NCBI GenBank assembly: GCA_003697125.1
Contig: RFGB01000079.1
Location: forward strand, 1-38,002
Origin: Alphaproteobacteria bacterium
GTDB lineage: Bacteria; Pseudomonadota; Alphaproteobacteria; Rhodobacterales; Rhodobacteraceae
Direction: 5' to 3'
DNA length: 38,002 nucleotides
A model generated the notes under the pieces. The model had not been told where the DNA came from. It did not search any database and worked only from the letters and a program-made list of their open reading frames with translations. How positions within the stretch are numbered: the first letter of the stretch is position 1; each line of letters starts with the position of its first letter. The position numbers and the translations under genes are program-made. Shown here one piece after another: positions 22,455 to 30,837 of this stretch.

Positions 22455-23983
22455 ATGAGTGGCGAGCCGAACAGGGCACGGGACCCGCGCCTCGACTTCT
22501 TCCGCGGGCTGGCGATGTTCATCATCCTGCTGGCTCATACCCCGGGCAATGGCTGGACGCTGTGGATCCCCGCGCGGTTCGGCTTCTCGGACGCCACCGA
22601 GATCTTCGTCTTCTGTTCGGGCTTCGCCTCGGCGCTGGCCTTCGGCGCGATCTTCCTGCGCCGCGGCTGGCTGATCGGCACCGCCCGGATCGCCTGGCGC
22701 ATCTGGCAGGTCTACTGGGCGCAGATCGGCATGGTGCTGGCCACCGCGCTGCTGCTCTATCTGGTGGACCGTCAGGGCTGGGGCGACCCGGCGATCCGCT
22801 ATGTGGCGCGCGTGCCGCTGCCGCCACTGTTCGAGGATACCGGCGAGGCGCTCCTGGGTCTTGCCACGCTGACCTGGGTGCCGAACTACTTCGACATCCT
22901 GCCGATGTATCTGGTGATCCTGGCGATGGTGCCGGCGGTGATGGCGATCCGGCGCATCGCCGGGGCGGGGGCGGTGGCGGTGGTGCTGGCGGCGATGTGG
23001 CTTGCGACCAATCTGGGGCTGATGGATCTGCCCTCGCGGCCCTGGGCGCCGGACATCCCGTGGTTCTTCAACCCCTTCGCCTGGCAGCTGGTCTTCTTCA
23101 CCGGCTTCGCGCTTGCCATGGGCTGGCTGCCCGCCCCGCCGGTCAGCCGGCGCCTGGTGCGGCTTGCCGCGGCCTATGTCCTGCTGACCCTGCCCATCGC
23201 CTGGTTCCGCATCCATCAGGGGCTGTGGCTGCCCGATGACTGGCTGGTGCAGGACTGGATCGCCGAGCTGCGGGCGCTGAGCGAACCGCTGTGGTGGAAG
23301 ACCTGGCTGGGGGCGGCGCGCTATGTGCATTTCCTGGCGCTGGCCTATCTGGCCTGGGTGGCGGTGGGGCCGGGGGGGCGGCGGCTGAGCGAGGGCTGGG
23401 CGCCGCCGGGGCGGCCCTCGGCGGCGGTGCAGTGGCTTGCCGCGGCGGTGGCGCTGGCCACGCTGCCCTATTCTGGATCGACGAGATCGCCCGCCTCTCG
23501 CCGGCGCTGGACCGCTGGCTGTATCACCAGCTTTCGGTCACCGCGACGCGCTGGCTCGGGACCGATCTCCTGGTGCCCGGCGAGCGGATCGGCATGGTGC
23601 AGCTGGCCCATCTGCTGGCGCTGGTGGTGCTGGGCTGGGCCGCCATCGGCCCGGGCGGGCGCGCCTTCGTGACCGGCGCGGGGTTCGTCCGGCTGGTGCC
23701 GGTGATCCGCAAGGTCGGCTCGCAGTCGCTGGCGGTGTTCCTGGTCTCGATGGTGCTGGCCCAGGCCAATGGCGTGATCCTCGACCGGATCGGCAGCGGG
23801 TTCTGGGCGCTGTGGCTGGTCAATCTGTGGGGCTTCGCGGTGCTGGTGGGGGTGGCGTATCTTGCCGGCTGGTTCCGCAGCCAGCCCTGGCGCGCGCGCC
23901 AGGCCGCCCCCGCGGCCGGTCCCCGTCCCGCGCCGGAGCGCGGGGCGGGCGGGGCCGCGGCGCTGGGCCTGTCCGCGCGCTGA
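22455..23983 (+). pseudogene. opgC: OpgC-domain membrane acyl/succinyltransferase, apparent -1-type frameshift near 23465
   Basis: Frame of 22455 carries RDPRLDFFRGLAMFIILLAHTPGNGWTLWIPARFGFSDATEIFVFCSGFASALAFG...; the downstream half (FWIDEIARLSPALDRWLYHQLSVTATRWL...RKVGSQSLAVFLVSMVLAQANGV) is in the frame of ORF 23291-23983. Confidence 0.8.
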
Positions 23984-24006
23984 GCGCGCCCCGCCCGCGG
24001 GCGGGG
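23975..24006 (+). terminator. Tandem hairpins at end of opgC
   Basis: GCGCGC-TGA-GCGCGC (stop codon in loop) then CCCCGCCCGCGGGCGGGG (18-bp perfect palindrome). Confidence 0.5.
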
Positions 24007-24054
24007 TGCCGCCACGTCTTGCGCCGGGGCGGATTCTCGATCAGGTTCTTCCGG

Positions 24055-24669
24055 ATGCGGGGCGGGACGGTCCTGCCCGCGCCGTCCAGCGACGGGGAGC
24101 GCACCGGGTTGCAGACGCCTCTGGGTTACAGCCTGCCGCAGAAGATCCTGCACTGGGCCGTGGCGGTTCTGGTGATCGGGATGGTTCCCGCGGGGATCGT
24201 CATCTCGGATTTCGACAACAAGCCCTGGGTCGAGGCGTATCTTGGCCCCGGCGGGTTCGACCGGCTCTACGATCTGCACAAGAATGTCGGCGTGATCGTG
24301 CTGGCGCTGGTCGCGATCAGGCTGGCGGTGCGCGCGGTGCAGGGCCAGCCGCCCTATTATCCGCCGCTGCCCGTGGCGCTGCGGATCATGTCCCGGGCGG
24401 TGCACTGGGCGCTCTATGCGCTGCTGATCGCCGCGCCGCTGATCGGCTGGATCGGGGTCAGCGCCTATCCCGCGCTGCCCGACTTCTTCGGGCTGGGGCG
24501 GCTGCCGGCGCTGACCGGCCCCGACCGCGCGCTGGCCGAATCCCTCTTGCGGCTGCACGGGGTGCTGGGCATCGCGATCGGCGTGCTCGCGGTGGTGCAT
24601 GTGCTGGCCGCGCTGTGGCACGGCATCATCTGCCGCGACGGCGTGCTGGCGCGGATGACCTGGGGCTGA
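24055..24669 (+). CDS. Cytochrome b561-family protein
   Basis: TPLGYSLPQKILHWAVAVLVIGMVPAGIVISDF...YDLHKNVGVIVLALVAIRLAVR...MSRAVHWALYALLIAAPLIGWIGVSAY...LHGVLGIAIGVLAVVHVLAALWHG. Confidence 0.9.
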   Translation: MRGGTVLPAPSSDGERTGLQTPLGYSLPQKILHWAVAVLVIGMVPAGIVISDFDNKPWVEAYLGPGGFDRLYDLHKNVGVIVLALVAIRLAVRAVQGQPPYYPPLPVALRIMSRAVHWALYALLIAAPLIGWIGVSAYPALPDFFGLGRLPALTGPDRALAESLLRLHGVLGIAIGVLAVVHVLAALWHGIICRDGVLARMTWG

Positions 24670-24685
24670 CGGCCGGGCGTCAGCC
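24664..24685. terminator. Bidirectional stem-loop containing both convergent stop codons
   Basis: GGCTGACG-GCCGGG-CGTCAGCC, perfect 8-bp stem. Confidence 0.55.
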
Positions 24686-25462
24686 GGGCGGCAGGGCGAG
24701 GATGTCGCAATGGCCCACGCGCACCTCGCGCGCGGCGCGGCGGGCGGCGTGCCAGTGGCCGAGCGTGGCCGGGTCCAGCGCGCCGGTCTCGGCCACCGCC
24801 GCGGCGGCACCGTCGGCCAGCGCCGCGATCAGCGCGGCGTCGCGCGGACCGAGCCGCCACGGGCTTTGCGCCACCCGCACCCGCCAGCCCCGCGCGGCCA
24901 GCATGCCGGCCAGCGCCGCGCCCGCCTCGGGGCCCAGCGCCGGGCCCGATCCCAGCCCCTTGTTGCGGCGCATGTGGCGGTGAAAGGCGGCCAGCGCCCG
25001 CGCCTCGGCGGGGTGCGGCGGGGTCCAGCTTTCCTGCCCGTCATAGCTGAGCGCGACATAGACCGCCGCGCCGGCCGGCACCGCCTGGCCCAGGCGCGTC
25101 AGCCAGTCGCGGCTGGCGAGATCGATCAGCGCGGTGGCGGTGACGATGTCGGCGGGCCTGGCCAGCACCGTCTCGAGCGCCTCGGCCAGATCGGCGCGCA
25201 GGAAGCCAAGCCCGGGCCGGCCCGCCGCCGCCCGCCGCGCGCGGTCGAGCAGCGCGGGATCGGCATCCACCATCAGCCACTGCGTGCCGGGGGGCAGGGC
25301 CGGGGCCAGCGCCCGCCAGCTGGCGCCGGTGCCGCAGCCCAGATCGGTGACGCGCGCCGGGCGGCCCGCCAGCCAGGCGGCCAGTTCGGCCACCAGCCCC
25401 GGGTCGCGCGCCGCCCTGTCGGCGGGCTCGCGCAGCGCCAGCCAGTCGGCGGAAAAGCTCAT
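24680..25462 (-). CDS. Class I SAM-dependent methyltransferase
   Basis: RVTDLGCGTGASWRALAPALPPGTQWLMVDADPALLDRARRAAAGRPGLGFLRADL. Confidence 0.88.
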   Translation of the reverse strand: MSFSADWLALREPADRAARDPGLVAELAAWLAGRPARVTDLGCGTGASWRALAPALPPGTQWLMVDADPALLDRARRAAAGRPGLGFLRADLAEALETVLARPADIVTATALIDLASRDWLTRLGQAVPAGAAVYVALSYDGQESWTPPHPAEARALAAFHRHMRRNKGLGSGPALGPEAGAALAGMLAARGWRVRVAQSPWRLGPRDAALIAALADGAAAAVAETGALDPATLGHWHAARRAAREVRVGHCDILALPPG

Positions 25463-26487
25463 CGCGCCACCCGCCGCAGCACCGCGGCGACGCGCCGGGC
25501 GGTCTCGACCCAGCCCGGCAGGCCCAGGGCATGGGCCCGCCCCGCCGCGGCCATGGCGTCGGCCCGCGCGCGGTCCGAGATGAGCGTCCCCAGCGCGTCG
25601 GCCAGCGCGTCGGGATCCTCGGGCGGCACCACCAGCCCCGCCGCCGCCGGCACCAGCCAGGGCACCGCCCCGGCTCGGGCGGCCACCAGCGGAAGGCCGC
25701 GCATCATCGCCTCGGCCAGGACCATGCCATAGCCTTCGTGGCGCGAGGGCAGGCAGAAGATGTCCGCCCCGGCATAGAGGGCGTCGCGCCCCGCCGCATC
25801 CACCGCGCCGCGGATGGTGATCCGCGCGCCCAGCGGTTCGGCCAGCCGGCGCAGCCGGGCCGCCCATGCCGGGTCGCGATCGTCGGGCCCGGCGATCACG
25901 CAGCGCCAGTCGGGCCCGGTGATCCGCGCCAGCGCCGCGATCAGCAGGTCATGGCCCTTGCGCGGCGTGAGCGAGCCCAGCGACAGGATCACCGGCGGCG
26001 CGCCGCGGCGCGGGGCGGGCGGGGCCGGTTCGATCCCGGGGGGCGCGACGGTGATCCGCCCCGGCGGCACGCCCAGATCCGCGACGTCGCGCAGCGTGGC
26101 GGGGCTGGGCACGATCACCGCCGCGGCCAGCGCCAGCGCCGCCGCCTCGCTGTCGCGCAGGCGCGCCGCCTCGGCTGCCGACAGCCCGGTCTCGCGCCAC
26201 AAGGGATGATGGCACAGCGCCACCACCGGCCCGGGCGCCGCGCGCAGCAGGTCGGGCGGCATCGCGCCCAGCGCCAGGCCGTCGATCAGCACCAGCCCGG
26301 ACAGCCGCGACAGAAGCCGGGCGGTCCGGTCGAGTTCGGCCGCATCCGGGCGCGGAAAGCCCGCGGGCAGGCTGACCAGATCGAGTGTCAGCCCCGCGGC
26401 CGGTGCCGCGGCCAGGAGCGCGCGCGCATAGGCATAGCCGCCGGTCGGCGTGTCGATCGGTCCCGGCACCGCGAAGGCGGCGCGCAT
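25459..26487 (-). CDS. Glycosyltransferase family 4
   Basis: ILSLGSLTPRKGHDLLIAALARI...YAGADIFCLPSRHEGYGMVLAEAMMRGLPLVAARAGAVPWLV. Confidence 0.92.
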   Translation of the reverse strand: MRAAFAVPGPIDTPTGGYAYARALLAAAPAAGLTLDLVSLPAGFPRPDAAELDRTARLLSRLSGLVLIDGLALGAMPPDLLRAAPGPVVALCHHPLWRETGLSAAEAARLRDSEAAALALAAAVIVPSPATLRDVADLGVPPGRITVAPPGIEPAPPAPRRGAPPVILSLGSLTPRKGHDLLIAALARITGPDWRCVIAGPDDRDPAWAARLRRLAEPLGARITIRGAVDAAGRDALYAGADIFCLPSRHEGYGMVLAEAMMRGLPLVAARAGAVPWLVPAAAGLVVPPEDPDALADALGTLISDRARADAMAAAGRAHALGLPGWVETARRVAAVLRRVAR

Positions 26488-26490
26488 CGG

Positions 26491-26877
26491 TCAGATCTCG
26501 CGTTCGAGGCTGGCGCGCGCCACATGGCTTTCATGCAGCGTCACCCGCAGGCGGGTCAGGCCGTCCGCCCCCTCGCCCAGCTCGTGGCGCCGCGCGAGGA
26601 TGCCCTCGAGGATATGCCGGCAGAGCCATTCGGTGGTGGTGATCTCGCCGGGGAACAGCCGGTCGAGATTGGCATAGCCGAGCGGCGCCAGCACCGCCTT
26701 CAGCACCGCATGGGCCCGGCCGATGTCGACCACGACATTGTGGCGCGTCAGCTCGGGGCGGAAGAAGGCGACATCGACGACGAAGGTCGCGCCGTGCAGC
26801 CCCTGGGCGGGGCCGAAGAAGGGATCGGGCAGGGAGTGGGCGACCATGATGTGGTCGCGGACCTCGACGCTGAACAT
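26491..26877 (-). CDS. 6-pyruvoyl-tetrahydropterin synthase / 6-carboxytetrahydropterin synthase homologue, divergent active site
   Basis: MFSVEVRDHIMVAHSLPDPFFGPAQGLHGATFVVDVAFFRPEL...VVVDIGRAHAVLKAVLAPLGYANLDRLFPGEITTTEWLCRHI...LRVTLHESHVARASLE. Confidence 0.85.
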   Translation of the reverse strand: MFSVEVRDHIMVAHSLPDPFFGPAQGLHGATFVVDVAFFRPELTRHNVVVDIGRAHAVLKAVLAPLGYANLDRLFPGEITTTEWLCRHILEGILARRHELGEGADGLTRLRVTLHESHVARASLEREI

Positions 26878-26895: not shown

Positions 26896-27882
26896 TCAGG
26901 ATTCCTCGGACCGGGCGGGATAGCGCACCGCGACGCCGATGCAGCCGCGGTTGTCGGGCGACAGCAGGCCCGGCAGCGCCGCGGGCAGGTCGTCGAAGGC
27001 GACCTCGTGGGTGATCAGCGCATCCAGCGCCGGATCGTCGAGCAGCGCCAGCGCGCGCGCCAGCCTGTCGCGGGGGGTGAGGCTGTCGCGCCGGGACGGC
27101 GCCACCGCGCCCACCTGGCTCGAGATGATCCTCAGGCGGCGGGAATGGAAGGCCCCGCCCAGCGGCACCGGCACCATGGCGTCGCCATACCAGCTCATCT
27201 CGATCAGCCGACCCTCGAAGCCCAGCGCGGCCAGCCCGTCGGCAAGCCCCGCGGCGCTGGCCGAACAGTGGAACACCAGATCGGCATCCTCGATCCCCGC
27301 GGTGGAGGTGGCGAAGCTCACGCCAAGTTCATGCGCGACCCCTCGCCTTTCGGCAAGGCGGTCGATAAGGATCACCTGACAGCGGCCCAGGGTGGCGGCC
27401 AGCCGGGCGGTCAGGCAGCCGACCGTGCCGGCCCCGATCACCAGCACGCGGCTGCCGGGGGCGGGTTCGGCATCCCAGATGGCGTTGAGGGCGGTTTCCA
27501 TGTTGGCGGCGAGGATGGCCCGGCGCGGGGGCACCGCCCCGGGCAGGGGCAGCAGGTCGCCGGGCGCGGCGCGGAAGGCGGTCTGATGGGGATGCAGCGC
27601 GAAGACCATGCGGCCGGCCAGCGCGGGCGGGCCGGCCTCCACCAGGCCCACGGCGGCATAGCCGTATTTCACCGGGAAGGGGAAGGTGCCCTCCTGCCTC
27701 GGGGCGCGCATGCGCCCATGCTCGGAAGGCGGGACGCGGCCCTCGGCCACCAGCCTTTCGGTGCCCCGCGACAGGCCGGACCACAGCGTGCGGACCAGCA
27801 CCTCGCCCGACCCCTCGGCCGCCGGCGCGATCACCGACCGGCCGGGGGCGACATGCCACAGCGCGCGGGGCATTGCTGGCAT
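26896..27882 (-). CDS. Medium-chain (zinc-binding type) dehydrogenase/reductase
   Basis: VRTLWSGLSRGTERLVAEGRVP...FPFPVKYGYAAVGLVEAG...GSRVLVIGAGTVGCLTARLAATL...FHCSASAAGLADGLAALGFEGRLIEMSWYGD. Confidence 0.88.
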   Translation of the reverse strand: MPAMPRALWHVAPGRSVIAPAAEGSGEVLVRTLWSGLSRGTERLVAEGRVPPSEHGRMRAPRQEGTFPFPVKYGYAAVGLVEAGPPALAGRMVFALHPHQTAFRAAPGDLLPLPGAVPPRRAILAANMETALNAIWDAEPAPGSRVLVIGAGTVGCLTARLAATLGRCQVILIDRLAERRGVAHELGVSFATSTAGIEDADLVFHCSASAAGLADGLAALGFEGRLIEMSWYGDAMVPVPLGGAFHSRRLRIISSQVGAVAPSRRDSLTPRDRLARALALLDDPALDALITHEVAFDDLPAALPGLLSPDNRGCIGVAVRYPARSEES

Positions 27883-27942: not shown

Positions 27943-29745
27943 ATGAAGCATGATCCGCATTCCCCTGTCACCGCCCCCGCGGCGATGACGCCCGCCGGGC
28001 TGCAGCCGGCCGCGCTGCTGGCCCGGCGCCGGCGCCTGGTGGCGGCGCTGAACGTCCTGACCATGGCGGGGCTTTCGGCGGCGATCATCCGGATCCTGGG
28101 CGCGGATGGCTGGAGCGCGCCGGATCTCGTGATCCTTGCGGGCTTCCTGATCGGCGCGCCGTGGACGGTGCTCGGCTTCTGGAACGCGGTGCTGGGGCTG
28201 TGGCTGCTGCACGGGGCGCGCGACGGGCTGATGCGCGCCGCGCCGCATCTGGCCGCGGCCGATGCGCCGCTGCCCGAGGGGCGGGTGGCGCTGTTGATGT
28301 TCCTGCGCAACGAGGATCCGGAAAGGGCGCTGGCGCGGCTGGCGGCGACGCGGGCCTCGCTGGATGCCACCGGCGAGGGGCACCGCTTCGACGTCTTCGT
28401 GCTGTCGGACAGTTCCGACCCCGCGATCGCGGCGGAGGAGGAGCGCGTCTTCGCCCGGGCGCGGCCGCTTCTGGGGGCGGGGGCGGTCTATCGCCGGCGT
28501 GCGCGGAACACCGGCTGGAAGGCGGGGAACATCCGCGACTGGATCGAGCACCGGGGCGGGGCCTATGCGTTCTTCCTGCCGCTGGATTCCGATTCGCTGA
28601 TGTCGGGGCCGATGATCCTGCGCATGCTGCGGATCATGGGCGCCCATCCGCGGCTTGGCATCCTGCAAAGCCTGGTGGTGGGCACGCCCAGCACCAGCGC
28701 CTTCGCCCGCATCTTCCAGTTCGGCATGCGCCACGGCATGCGCAGCTACACCATGGGATCGGCCTGGTGGCAGGGTGACTGCGGCCCCTACTGGGGGCAC
28801 AACGCGCTGATCCGCACCGCGCCCTTCCGCGATCACTGCGCGCTGCCGGTCCTGCCGGGGCGCGGTCCGCTCTCGGGTCACATCCTCAGCCATGATCAGA
28901 TCGAGGCGGTGCTGATGCGCCGGGCGGGCTGGGAGGTGCGGGTGCTGCCCGTCGAGGGCGAGAGCTGGGAGGACAACCCGGTGACGCTGCTCGACTTCAC
29001 CCGGCGGGACCTGCGCTGGTGCCAGGGGAACATGCAGTACTGGCCCTTCCTGGCGATGCCCGGCCTGCCGCCGGCCAGCCGTTTCCAGATCCTTGCCGCG
29101 ATCATGATGTATCTGGCCGCGCCGGCCTGGATGCTGATGACCCTGGCCGCGGCCTGGAAGCTGCTCGTCGGCGACATCGCCGGGATCGACTTCGCGCTGG
29201 GCATGGCGATGTTCTTCATCATGTTCGCGGTCAGCCTGTTCCCGAAGATCGCTGGCTGGCTCGACATCGCCCTGCGTCCGGGCGGCGCGGCCGCCTATGG
29301 CGGGCGGGGCCGGTTCGCCGCCGGGGCGCTGGCCGAGACGGTCTTCTCCATGCTGCTCGCGCCCGTGGTGGCGTTCCGCGTCACGCTGTTCCTGGCGGGG
29401 CTGCCGTTTGGCCGGCGCATCGTCTGGGCGGGGCAGCAGCGCGATCCGCGGGCGCTGTCCTGGGCCGAGGCGGCGCGCGGGCTGTGGCCGCAGACCCTGT
29501 TCGGGCTGGTGCTGGCGGCGGCGATCCTGGCCGCGGCGCCCGACGCGCTGCCCTGGGCCGCCCCGGTGCTGGCCGGGCTGATCCTGGCGATCCCCTTCGC
29601 GGTCCTCACCGCCCATCCCGGCTTCGGGACATGGGCGGCGCGGGCGGGGCTGTGCGCGATTCCCGACGAGCGCGCGCCCCACCCCTGCCTGGCGGCGCTC
29701 TCCGGGCGGCTGCCGGACCTGCCCGTCCCCACCGCCGCCGCCTGA
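27943..29745 (+). CDS. opgH: Osmoregulated periplasmic glucan glucosyltransferase
   Basis: FLRNEDPERALARLAATRASLDATGEGHRFDVFVLSDSSDPAIAAEEE...NTGWKAGNIRDWIEHRGGAYAFFLPLDSDSLMSG...GPYWGHNALIRTAPF...ILSHDQIEAVLMRRAGWEVRVLP...LRWCQGNMQYW. Confidence 0.96.
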   Translation: MKHDPHSPVTAPAAMTPAGLQPAALLARRRRLVAALNVLTMAGLSAAIIRILGADGWSAPDLVILAGFLIGAPWTVLGFWNAVLGLWLLHGARDGLMRAAPHLAAADAPLPEGRVALLMFLRNEDPERALARLAATRASLDATGEGHRFDVFVLSDSSDPAIAAEEERVFARARPLLGAGAVYRRRARNTGWKAGNIRDWIEHRGGAYAFFLPLDSDSLMSGPMILRMLRIMGAHPRLGILQSLVVGTPSTSAFARIFQFGMRHGMRSYTMGSAWWQGDCGPYWGHNALIRTAPFRDHCALPVLPGRGPLSGHILSHDQIEAVLMRRAGWEVRVLPVEGESWEDNPVTLLDFTRRDLRWCQGNMQYWPFLAMPGLPPASRFQILAAIMMYLAAPAWMLMTLAAAWKLLVGDIAGIDFALGMAMFFIMFAVSLFPKIAGWLDIALRPGGAAAYGGRGRFAAGALAETVFSMLLAPVVAFRVTLFLAGLPFGRRIVWAGQQRDPRALSWAEAARGLWPQTLFGLVLAAAILAAAPDALPWAAPVLAGLILAIPFAVLTAHPGFGTWAARAGLCAIPDERAPHPCLAALSGRLPDLPVPTAAA

Positions 29746-29746
29746 G

Positions 29747-29775
29747 CCGCCGCGCCCCCGGGGCGGCGGAATTTT
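29747..29775 (+). terminator. Rho-independent-like terminator after opgH
   Basis: CCGCCGCGCCCC/GGGGCGGCGG stem (2-nt bulge) followed by AATTTT. Confidence 0.55.
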
Positions 29776-29794
29776 CGGCATGACAATCGCACCC

Positions 29795-29820
29795 GATCGT
29801 TGCATCAATGCACGGCGATC
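29795..29820. promoter_or_regulatory. Nested inverted repeat upstream of dgcN (candidate operator)
   Basis: GATCG-t-TGCAT-CA-ATGCA-cgg-CGATC. Confidence 0.45.
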
Positions 29821-29835
29821 CAGACCGGGTGTGCG

Positions 29836-30837
29836 ATGATCGAAGCTCCGTATCTTCTGTTCCTGGGCGATGCGCCCGACCCTCTGGCGGCCAAGGTGGC
29901 CCAGGGCATCCGCGACTGGCGTCCGGATGCGGCCGTCGGCCAGTACCGGATGGAGGGCTGCCGGGCGGATCTCGGTCTTCCCGACATGACGATTGCCGAG
30001 GCGGTCGCCGCGGGGGCGAAGACCATGGTGATCGGGGTCGCGAACCGCGGCGGGGTGATTTCCCCATCCTGGCTGTCGGTTCTGGAGGAGGCGCTGGGCG
30101 CGGGCCTGGATCTCGCGTCGGGGCTGCACACGCTTCTGCGCGACGAGCCGGTTCTGGTCGCGGCGGCGCGCGCCCATGGGCGGCGTCTGCTGGACGTTCG
30201 GGTGCCTGACCGGCGCTATCCGATCGCCAATGGCCGGAAGCGGCGGGGCATGCGGCTGCTGGCGATGGGCACGGACTGTTCCTGCGGCAAGATGTACACC
30301 GCCCTGGCGATGGAGCGCGAGATGCGCGCGCGGGGGATGAAGGCGACCTTCCGCGCCACCGGCCAGACCGGAATCCTGATCACCGGGTCCGGGGTGCCCC
30401 TGGATGCGGTGGTCGCCGATTTCATGGCCGGCGCGGTGGAATGGCTGACGCCGGACAACGACCCCGATCACTGGGATCTGATCGAGGGTCAGGGCAGCCT
30501 GTTCCACCCGTCCTATTCGGGGGTGACGCTGGCGCTGCTGCATGGCGGCCAGCCCGATGCGATCGTGCTGTGCCACGAGCCGACGCGGGCGCATATGCGG
30601 GGGCTGCCGGATTATCCGCTGCCCTCGCTCGAGGAGCTGCGGTCGCTGTCCGAGACGCTGGGCCGGCGGGTCAATCCCGCGGTCAGGACCGTCGGGGTAT
30701 CGGTCAACACCGCCGGGCTGGATGCCGATGCGGCGCGGCGCTATCTGGCCGAGACCGAGCGGCGCATGGGCCTGCCGGCGGTGGACCCGTTCCGCGACGG
30801 GGCGGGGCGGCTGGTGGACGCGCTGGCATGCGGCTGA
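29836..30837 (+). CDS. dgcN: DUF1611-family protein, DgcN-like N-acetyltransferase
   Basis: YLLFLGDAPDPLAAKVAQGIRDWRPDAAVGQYRM...KRRGMRLLAMGTDCSCGKMYTALAMEREMRARGMKATFRATGQTGILITGSGVPLDAVVADFMAGAVEWL; followed by dgcA-like gene. Confidence 0.88.
   Translation: MIEAPYLLFLGDAPDPLAAKVAQGIRDWRPDAAVGQYRMEGCRADLGLPDMTIAEAVAAGAKTMVIGVANRGGVISPSWLSVLEEALGAGLDLASGLHTLLRDEPVLVAAARAHGRRLLDVRVPDRRYPIANGRKRRGMRLLAMGTDCSCGKMYTALAMEREMRARGMKATFRATGQTGILITGSGVPLDAVVADFMAGAVEWLTPDNDPDHWDLIEGQGSLFHPSYSGVTLALLHGGQPDAIVLCHEPTRAHMRGLPDYPLPSLEELRSLSETLGRRVNPAVRTVGVSVNTAGLDADAARRYLAETERRMGLPAVDPFRDGAGRLVDALACG

Follow-up and report, generated by a model that had tools for sequence, protein, structure and literature searches.

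The 128-residue protein encoded by the second gene of the operon described below belongs to PTPS-IV, an already known, SCO6650-type subfamily of PTPS/QueD homologues, and the conserved pathway that surrounds it is the more interesting question. This subfamily has lost one Zn ligand and the usual catalytic residues. We put a probability of about 0.6 on the reading that it instead provides a metal-free site that takes a 2-amino-4-oxo pyrimidine or pterin derived from the RibA branch, the product of which would then be glycosylated and methylated. The window, the whole 38,002-nucleotide stretch of alphaproteobacterial DNA analyzed here, contains the following features.

26491..26877, minus strand: PTPS-IV protein, 128 aa, with H14, FGPAQ (21-25), HGA (28-30), Y68-x-x-L-D72, TTE (81-83) and E116
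26896..27873, minus strand: zinc-binding-alcohol-dehydrogenase-like protein (ADH), distantly BchC-like; first operon gene, 18 nt before the PTPS gene
25459..26487, minus strand: GT4 family glycosyltransferase, 3 nt after the PTPS gene
24680..25462, minus strand: class I SAM-dependent methyltransferase, with a 4-nt overlap between its ATG and the GT4 stop
24055..24669, plus strand: cytochrome b561, convergent with the operon; conserved cassette neighbor
27943..29745, plus strand: OpgH/MdoH glucosyltransferase, divergent from the operon; conserved neighbor at 65/80 alphaproteobacterial loci
23893..24135, no strand: site between opgC and cytochrome b561 where the sister species carries the cassette RibD_C reductase, absent in the window

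Residues that define the PTPS-IV protein

The open reading frame is intact, with an ATG start and a GGAG about 8 nt upstream, and its GC3 of 0.90 fits what coding genes of such a GC-rich genome should show. It is the sole COG0720 gene in this genome, which is 95% complete. The protein matched PF01242 (E=2.1e-15; 57.2 bits against a curated cut-off of 22.4), and its AlphaFold model (pLDDT 95.3) had the tunneling fold, with 3D7J as the best PDB match (TM 0.95) followed by QueD/PTPS structures, the best matches all being PTPS/QueD; the protein thus belongs to this superfamily. However, it scored 30.2 bits against the QueD equivalog model, far under the cut-off of 89.25, and 21 bits against the 6PTHBS model (cut-off, 125).

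We mapped the residues by a profile alignment that included rat PTPS (1B66) and QueD of E. coli (4NTK). As shown by this alignment, rat C42 corresponds to A24, H48 to H28, H50 (the third Zn His) to A30, and D88-H89 to G67-Y68, and rat T105-T106-E107 is retained as T81-T82-E83. In a joint alignment, H14 corresponds to H23, and E116 is the C-terminal anchor Glu. The first-pass annotation had proposed the replacement of the catalytic Cys by Ala, of the second His of HGH by Ala, and of Asp-His by Gly-Tyr, with H14, H28 and the C-terminal Glu kept; the alignment bears out this entire list. Accordingly, none of the canonical motifs was found in the protein: it reads AxxxHGA and GY in place of the QueD (PTPS-I) CxxxHGH with three Zn His and the catalytic D-H, and it carries neither the PTPS-II motif CxxxxxHGH (profile alignment) nor the PTPS-III motif ExxHGH, where its sequence is Q25-G-L-H-G-A. 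The protein still resembles PTPS-I in fold (TM ~0.76), H14, H28 and E116, but lacks the Cys and the third Zn His and has Tyr for the catalytic His; it resembles PTPS-II (rat/human 6-pyruvoyl tetrahydropterin synthase) in fold and in the TTE/Glu pterin-site residues, but C42, H50, D88 and H89 are all replaced. The predicted pterin-recognition residues, Glu116 and TTE 81-83, are kept, whereas the catalytic Cys, Asp and His and one of the Zn ligands are lost, so that the protein should be unable to run the Zn-dependent PTPS or QueD reaction. From these residues, PTPS-IV proteins probably bind no Zn and have no PTPS activity.

The closest solved structure by both sequence and fold is SCO6650 (PDB 3D7J, a 2008 crystal structure from Streptomyces coelicolor), which matched the window protein with E=1.6e-34 by sequence and with TM 0.95 and 55% identity to the model. 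Both share the FGPAQ, HGA, Y..LD and E motifs; SCO6650 is, however, actinobacterial, and related Streptomyces cassettes contain a creatininase and a Met-type RibA, neither of which is present in the window. SCO6650 was reportedly found to have no Zn, no catalytic triad and no PTPS activity, with the pterin pocket retained. The FGPAQ at residues 21-25 is the published signature of PTPS-IV (COG0720/IPR007115, cluster 62; 561 sequences; PMC5445326). This signature and the match to SCO6650 indicate that the core of the finding is already known at the family level; the subfamily had been described, and the earlier reading of this DNA did not place the protein there.

We compared the protein with 94 relatives from alpha- and gammaproteobacteria and actinobacteria, including SCO6650, and with 24 canonical homologues from the window's bacterial family. 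H14, A24, H28, A30, Y68, D72 and E116 were invariant in 94/94 relatives (joint alignment), while the canonical homologues had H, C (23/24), H, H, H, N and E (23/24) at these positions, with DH at 67-68 and H at 30 in all 24. This refines the reading of Asp-His as Gly-Tyr: Tyr68 is fixed, whereas residue 67 is variable (N in 58, K in 15, A in 13, and G in 2 of the 94). Among 38 diverse members, F21, G22 and A24 were invariant and P23 and Q25 reached at least 90%. Across phyla 22 columns were invariant, and the window protein keeps them all. The polar conserved positions without a canonical counterpart include R7 (for Glu/Gln), Y68, D72 and the nearly invariant Q25. No replacement Zn ligand was found among the invariant columns. 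The 94 PTPS-IV rows formed one clade apart from the canonical homologues (support, 100/100), and a single PTPS-IV group was recovered in 100% of 200 bootstrap trees. The fixation of the altered residues in the 94 relatives and this single clade indicate that the changes define a subfamily and do not reflect decay, which is rejected as their cause. Apart from residue 67, the altered residues are conserved and not scattered, and no orthologue with the canonical residues was found; the earlier suggestion of a different reaction or a non-enzymatic role therefore stands.

A conserved cassette and its association with RibD_C and RibA

The window genes follow an operon-like order, ADH, PTPS (second gene), GT4 and methyltransferase, with the spacings listed above, and the same gene order recurs across alphaproteobacteria. 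The ADH scored 54.6 bits against the BchC model, under the cut-off of 291. At 80 alphaproteobacterial loci, some cut by contig ends, we found the methyltransferase at 72, ADH at 67, OpgH at 65 and cytochrome b561 at 49. The GT4 gene between PTPS and methyltransferase is missing from some Rhodobacterales cassettes, and other lineages add a CDP-alcohol phosphatidyltransferase and an LPG-synthase-type membrane protein. Outside the alphaproteobacteria, we found the cassette on a plasmid of a gammaproteobacterium (Chromatiaceae) and in the actinobacteria Streptomyces and Microbacterium. At least 524 loci with a PTPS-IV relative were seen in one bacterial-genome scan, usually within a conserved operon; a literature search turned up no phenotype linked to the cassette. 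OpgH, which is followed by DgcN (27943-30837, plus strand, for the pair in the window), is strikingly conserved beside the PTPS-IV operon of alphaproteobacteria for no obvious reason.

Published neighbors of the PTPS-IV cluster include PF00925 (RibA) and PF01872 (RibD_C) (PMC5445326). Many of the relatives resemble cluster 62 in this respect, with RibD_C at 35/80 and RibA at 33/80 loci, many of which are cut by contig ends. In contrast, neither is adjacent to the window PTPS gene; this neighborhood is a statistical feature of PTPS-IV and not a defining residue feature. When cassette-type RibD_C was defined by at least 45% identity and at least 168 bits, it was present in 17/21 PTPS-IV genomes compared to 1/28 without PTPS-IV, with the window genome excluded (Fisher p=1.5e-8, a value that overstates independence because the genomes are akin to one another). 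The single positive genome among the 28, G163, belongs to the same genus as the window, and the contig in question breaks off within the cassette methyltransferase gene; PTPS-IV may therefore well be present in this genome. Furthermore, RibD_C is unlinked on the chromosome in two genomes (G084 and G102), indicating that the association is not merely one of gene order.

The cassette RibD_C is nearest to the archaeal stand-alone reductase 2AZN, and no Pfam match to a deaminase domain was found in it. Without the deaminase, the 2-amino group should survive, and the conserved Glu of the PTPS pocket would read it. Two Streptomyces cassette RibAs (L119:14479-15138 and L150:14265-14867) have Met at the position of E. 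coli Tyr105 (M120 in L119), and a creatininase adjoins the Met-type RibA in both. Where the motif is readable in the other cassette RibAs, the residue is Tyr and the locus showed no creatininase. SCO6655, which has Met120, makes a formylated pyrimidine, from which the creatininase homologue ArfB removes the formyl group. Met-type RibA with creatininase is thus the pattern expected if the RibA product were formylated and then deformylated by an ArfB-like creatininase. Taken from two loci and this known chemistry, the pattern fits a shared 2,5-diaminopyrimidinone intermediate. Toxoflavin-type pathways branch from RibA/RibD, with a dedicated RibA copy, a RibD-type reductase and a methyltransferase feeding a non-flavin product; they are not known to have a PTPS-like, GT4 or dehydrogenase component.

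The window genome and alternative readings

The sister species (G163) has the order TPR-opgC-RibD_C-cytochrome b561-methyltransferase. No RibD_C remnant was found in the ~240 bp between opgC and cytochrome b561 in the window, and no cassette RibD_C elsewhere in its genome, where the search returned the housekeeping RibD (37% identity) and an unrelated weak RibD_C-like frame on another contig (C166). The opgC-like acyltransferase gene (22455-23983, plus strand) is interrupted near 23471, where it appears to have lost 1 nt compared with the sister genome (L152); the cause is either local decay to a pseudogene or an assembly error. The RibBA of the riboflavin operon (L123:1678-2793, on G000:C25) has no GCH II Zn motif in its C-terminal domain, and a stand-alone RibA on contig C197 (L124:4786-5997) has it; the latter is therefore the only functional-looking GTP cyclohydrolase II in the genome. 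With the cassette RibD_C gone, either housekeeping enzymes would have to supply the upstream steps or the pathway is in decay.

This last point raises the question of whether the PTPS gene is itself a decaying pseudogene or cassette relic in this strain, for which the RibD_C loss, the nearby opgC frameshift and a long terminal branch of the protein (0.67) could be cited. We regard this as very unlikely, as the reading frame is intact with coding-like GC3, all 22 subfamily-invariant residues are kept, and the operon partners are intact and in the same order as in relatives. That the protein works as a QueD or PTPS with catalytic residues supplied from other positions is more improbable still. 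The fold is the same and no other COG0720 gene exists in the genome, but no new invariant Cys, Asp or His replaces the lost ones. In addition, the window genome contains no real QueC (a match of 21.6 bits across 61 residues); there is thus no queuosine pathway that would need the PTPS-IV protein, and a QueD role is rejected for this genome. Four genomes with QueC (G054, G151, G195 and G266) keep a canonical homologue alongside PTPS-IV. One exception was observed, G261, in which QueC is present and the only COG0720 protein detected is of the PTPS-IV type, leaving its QueD step unexplained. A role in cofactor F420 synthesis has the least probability of all. 'PTPS-IV' has been tied to F420 from unpublished data (PMC5041015), but that statement concerns an archaeal cofactor and may mean sequences other than the FGPAQ group. 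Moreover, CofD was absent from 15/15 PTPS-IV genomes tested, with methanogen and haloarchaeal controls positive; the F420 link therefore does not hold for these bacteria, and such a role is rejected for them.

Alternatively, the protein could be a non-catalytic pterin binder, a carrier, scaffold or regulator serving the neighboring enzymes, which we consider doubtful though far from negligible. The catalytic Cys and His and one Zn ligand are lost in 94/94 relatives and the Asp in 93/94 with the pterin anchors kept, and the reported lack of PTPS activity of SCO6650 points the same way. Nevertheless, the 22 columns invariant across phyla include R7, Y68 and D72, with Q25 nearly so, and invariant polar positions without a canonical counterpart suggest new chemistry over mere binding. 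Some Streptomyces copies also do not lie beside the enzymes that such a binder would serve. These plasmid copies (L120, L147 and L148) are near genes for cupin, MBL-fold, MEKHLA and BTAD-regulator proteins.

Proposed function of the cassette

For the metal-free site, the fixed R7, H14, Q25, H28, Y68, D72, E83 and E116, which do not in themselves prove catalysis, would most likely form a pocket for a 2-amino-4-oxo pyrimidine or pterin. Starting from GTP, the route to this substrate would run by way of GTP cyclohydrolase II; the deaminase-less RibD_C, present in most carriers, would then convert the 2,5-diamino-6-ribosylamino- to the ribitylamino-pyrimidinone phosphate. The dehydrogenase, GT4 glycosyltransferase and methyltransferase of the operon would tailor the substrate into a glycosylated, methylated pterin-like product. 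Counted against this proposal are the window genome's lack of a cassette RibD_C and of an operon-side RibA, its long PTPS branch, and the Streptomyces copies outside any cassette. More specifically, and only tentatively, PTPS-IV might convert 2,5-diamino-6-ribitylamino-pyrimidinone, the product of RibA and RibD_C, in a new reaction that needs no metal, with the cassette making an undescribed glycosylated, methylated pterin-like metabolite. Since several cassettes encode a CDP-alcohol phosphatidyltransferase and membrane proteins of the LPG-synthase type, this metabolite may be lipid-linked and exported, and it may be redox-coupled through cytochrome b561.

PTPS-IV relatives are labeled '6-carboxytetrahydropterin synthase' in databases, and their residues argue against this label. 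The cassette inventory points to a concrete candidate pathway of RibA, RibD_C, PTPS-IV, dehydrogenase, GT4 and methyltransferase, with a creatininase as an optional member after RibA. Assigning the function correctly would mend an annotation error that is widespread, and it could bring to light a pterin-type cofactor or signal not described before.
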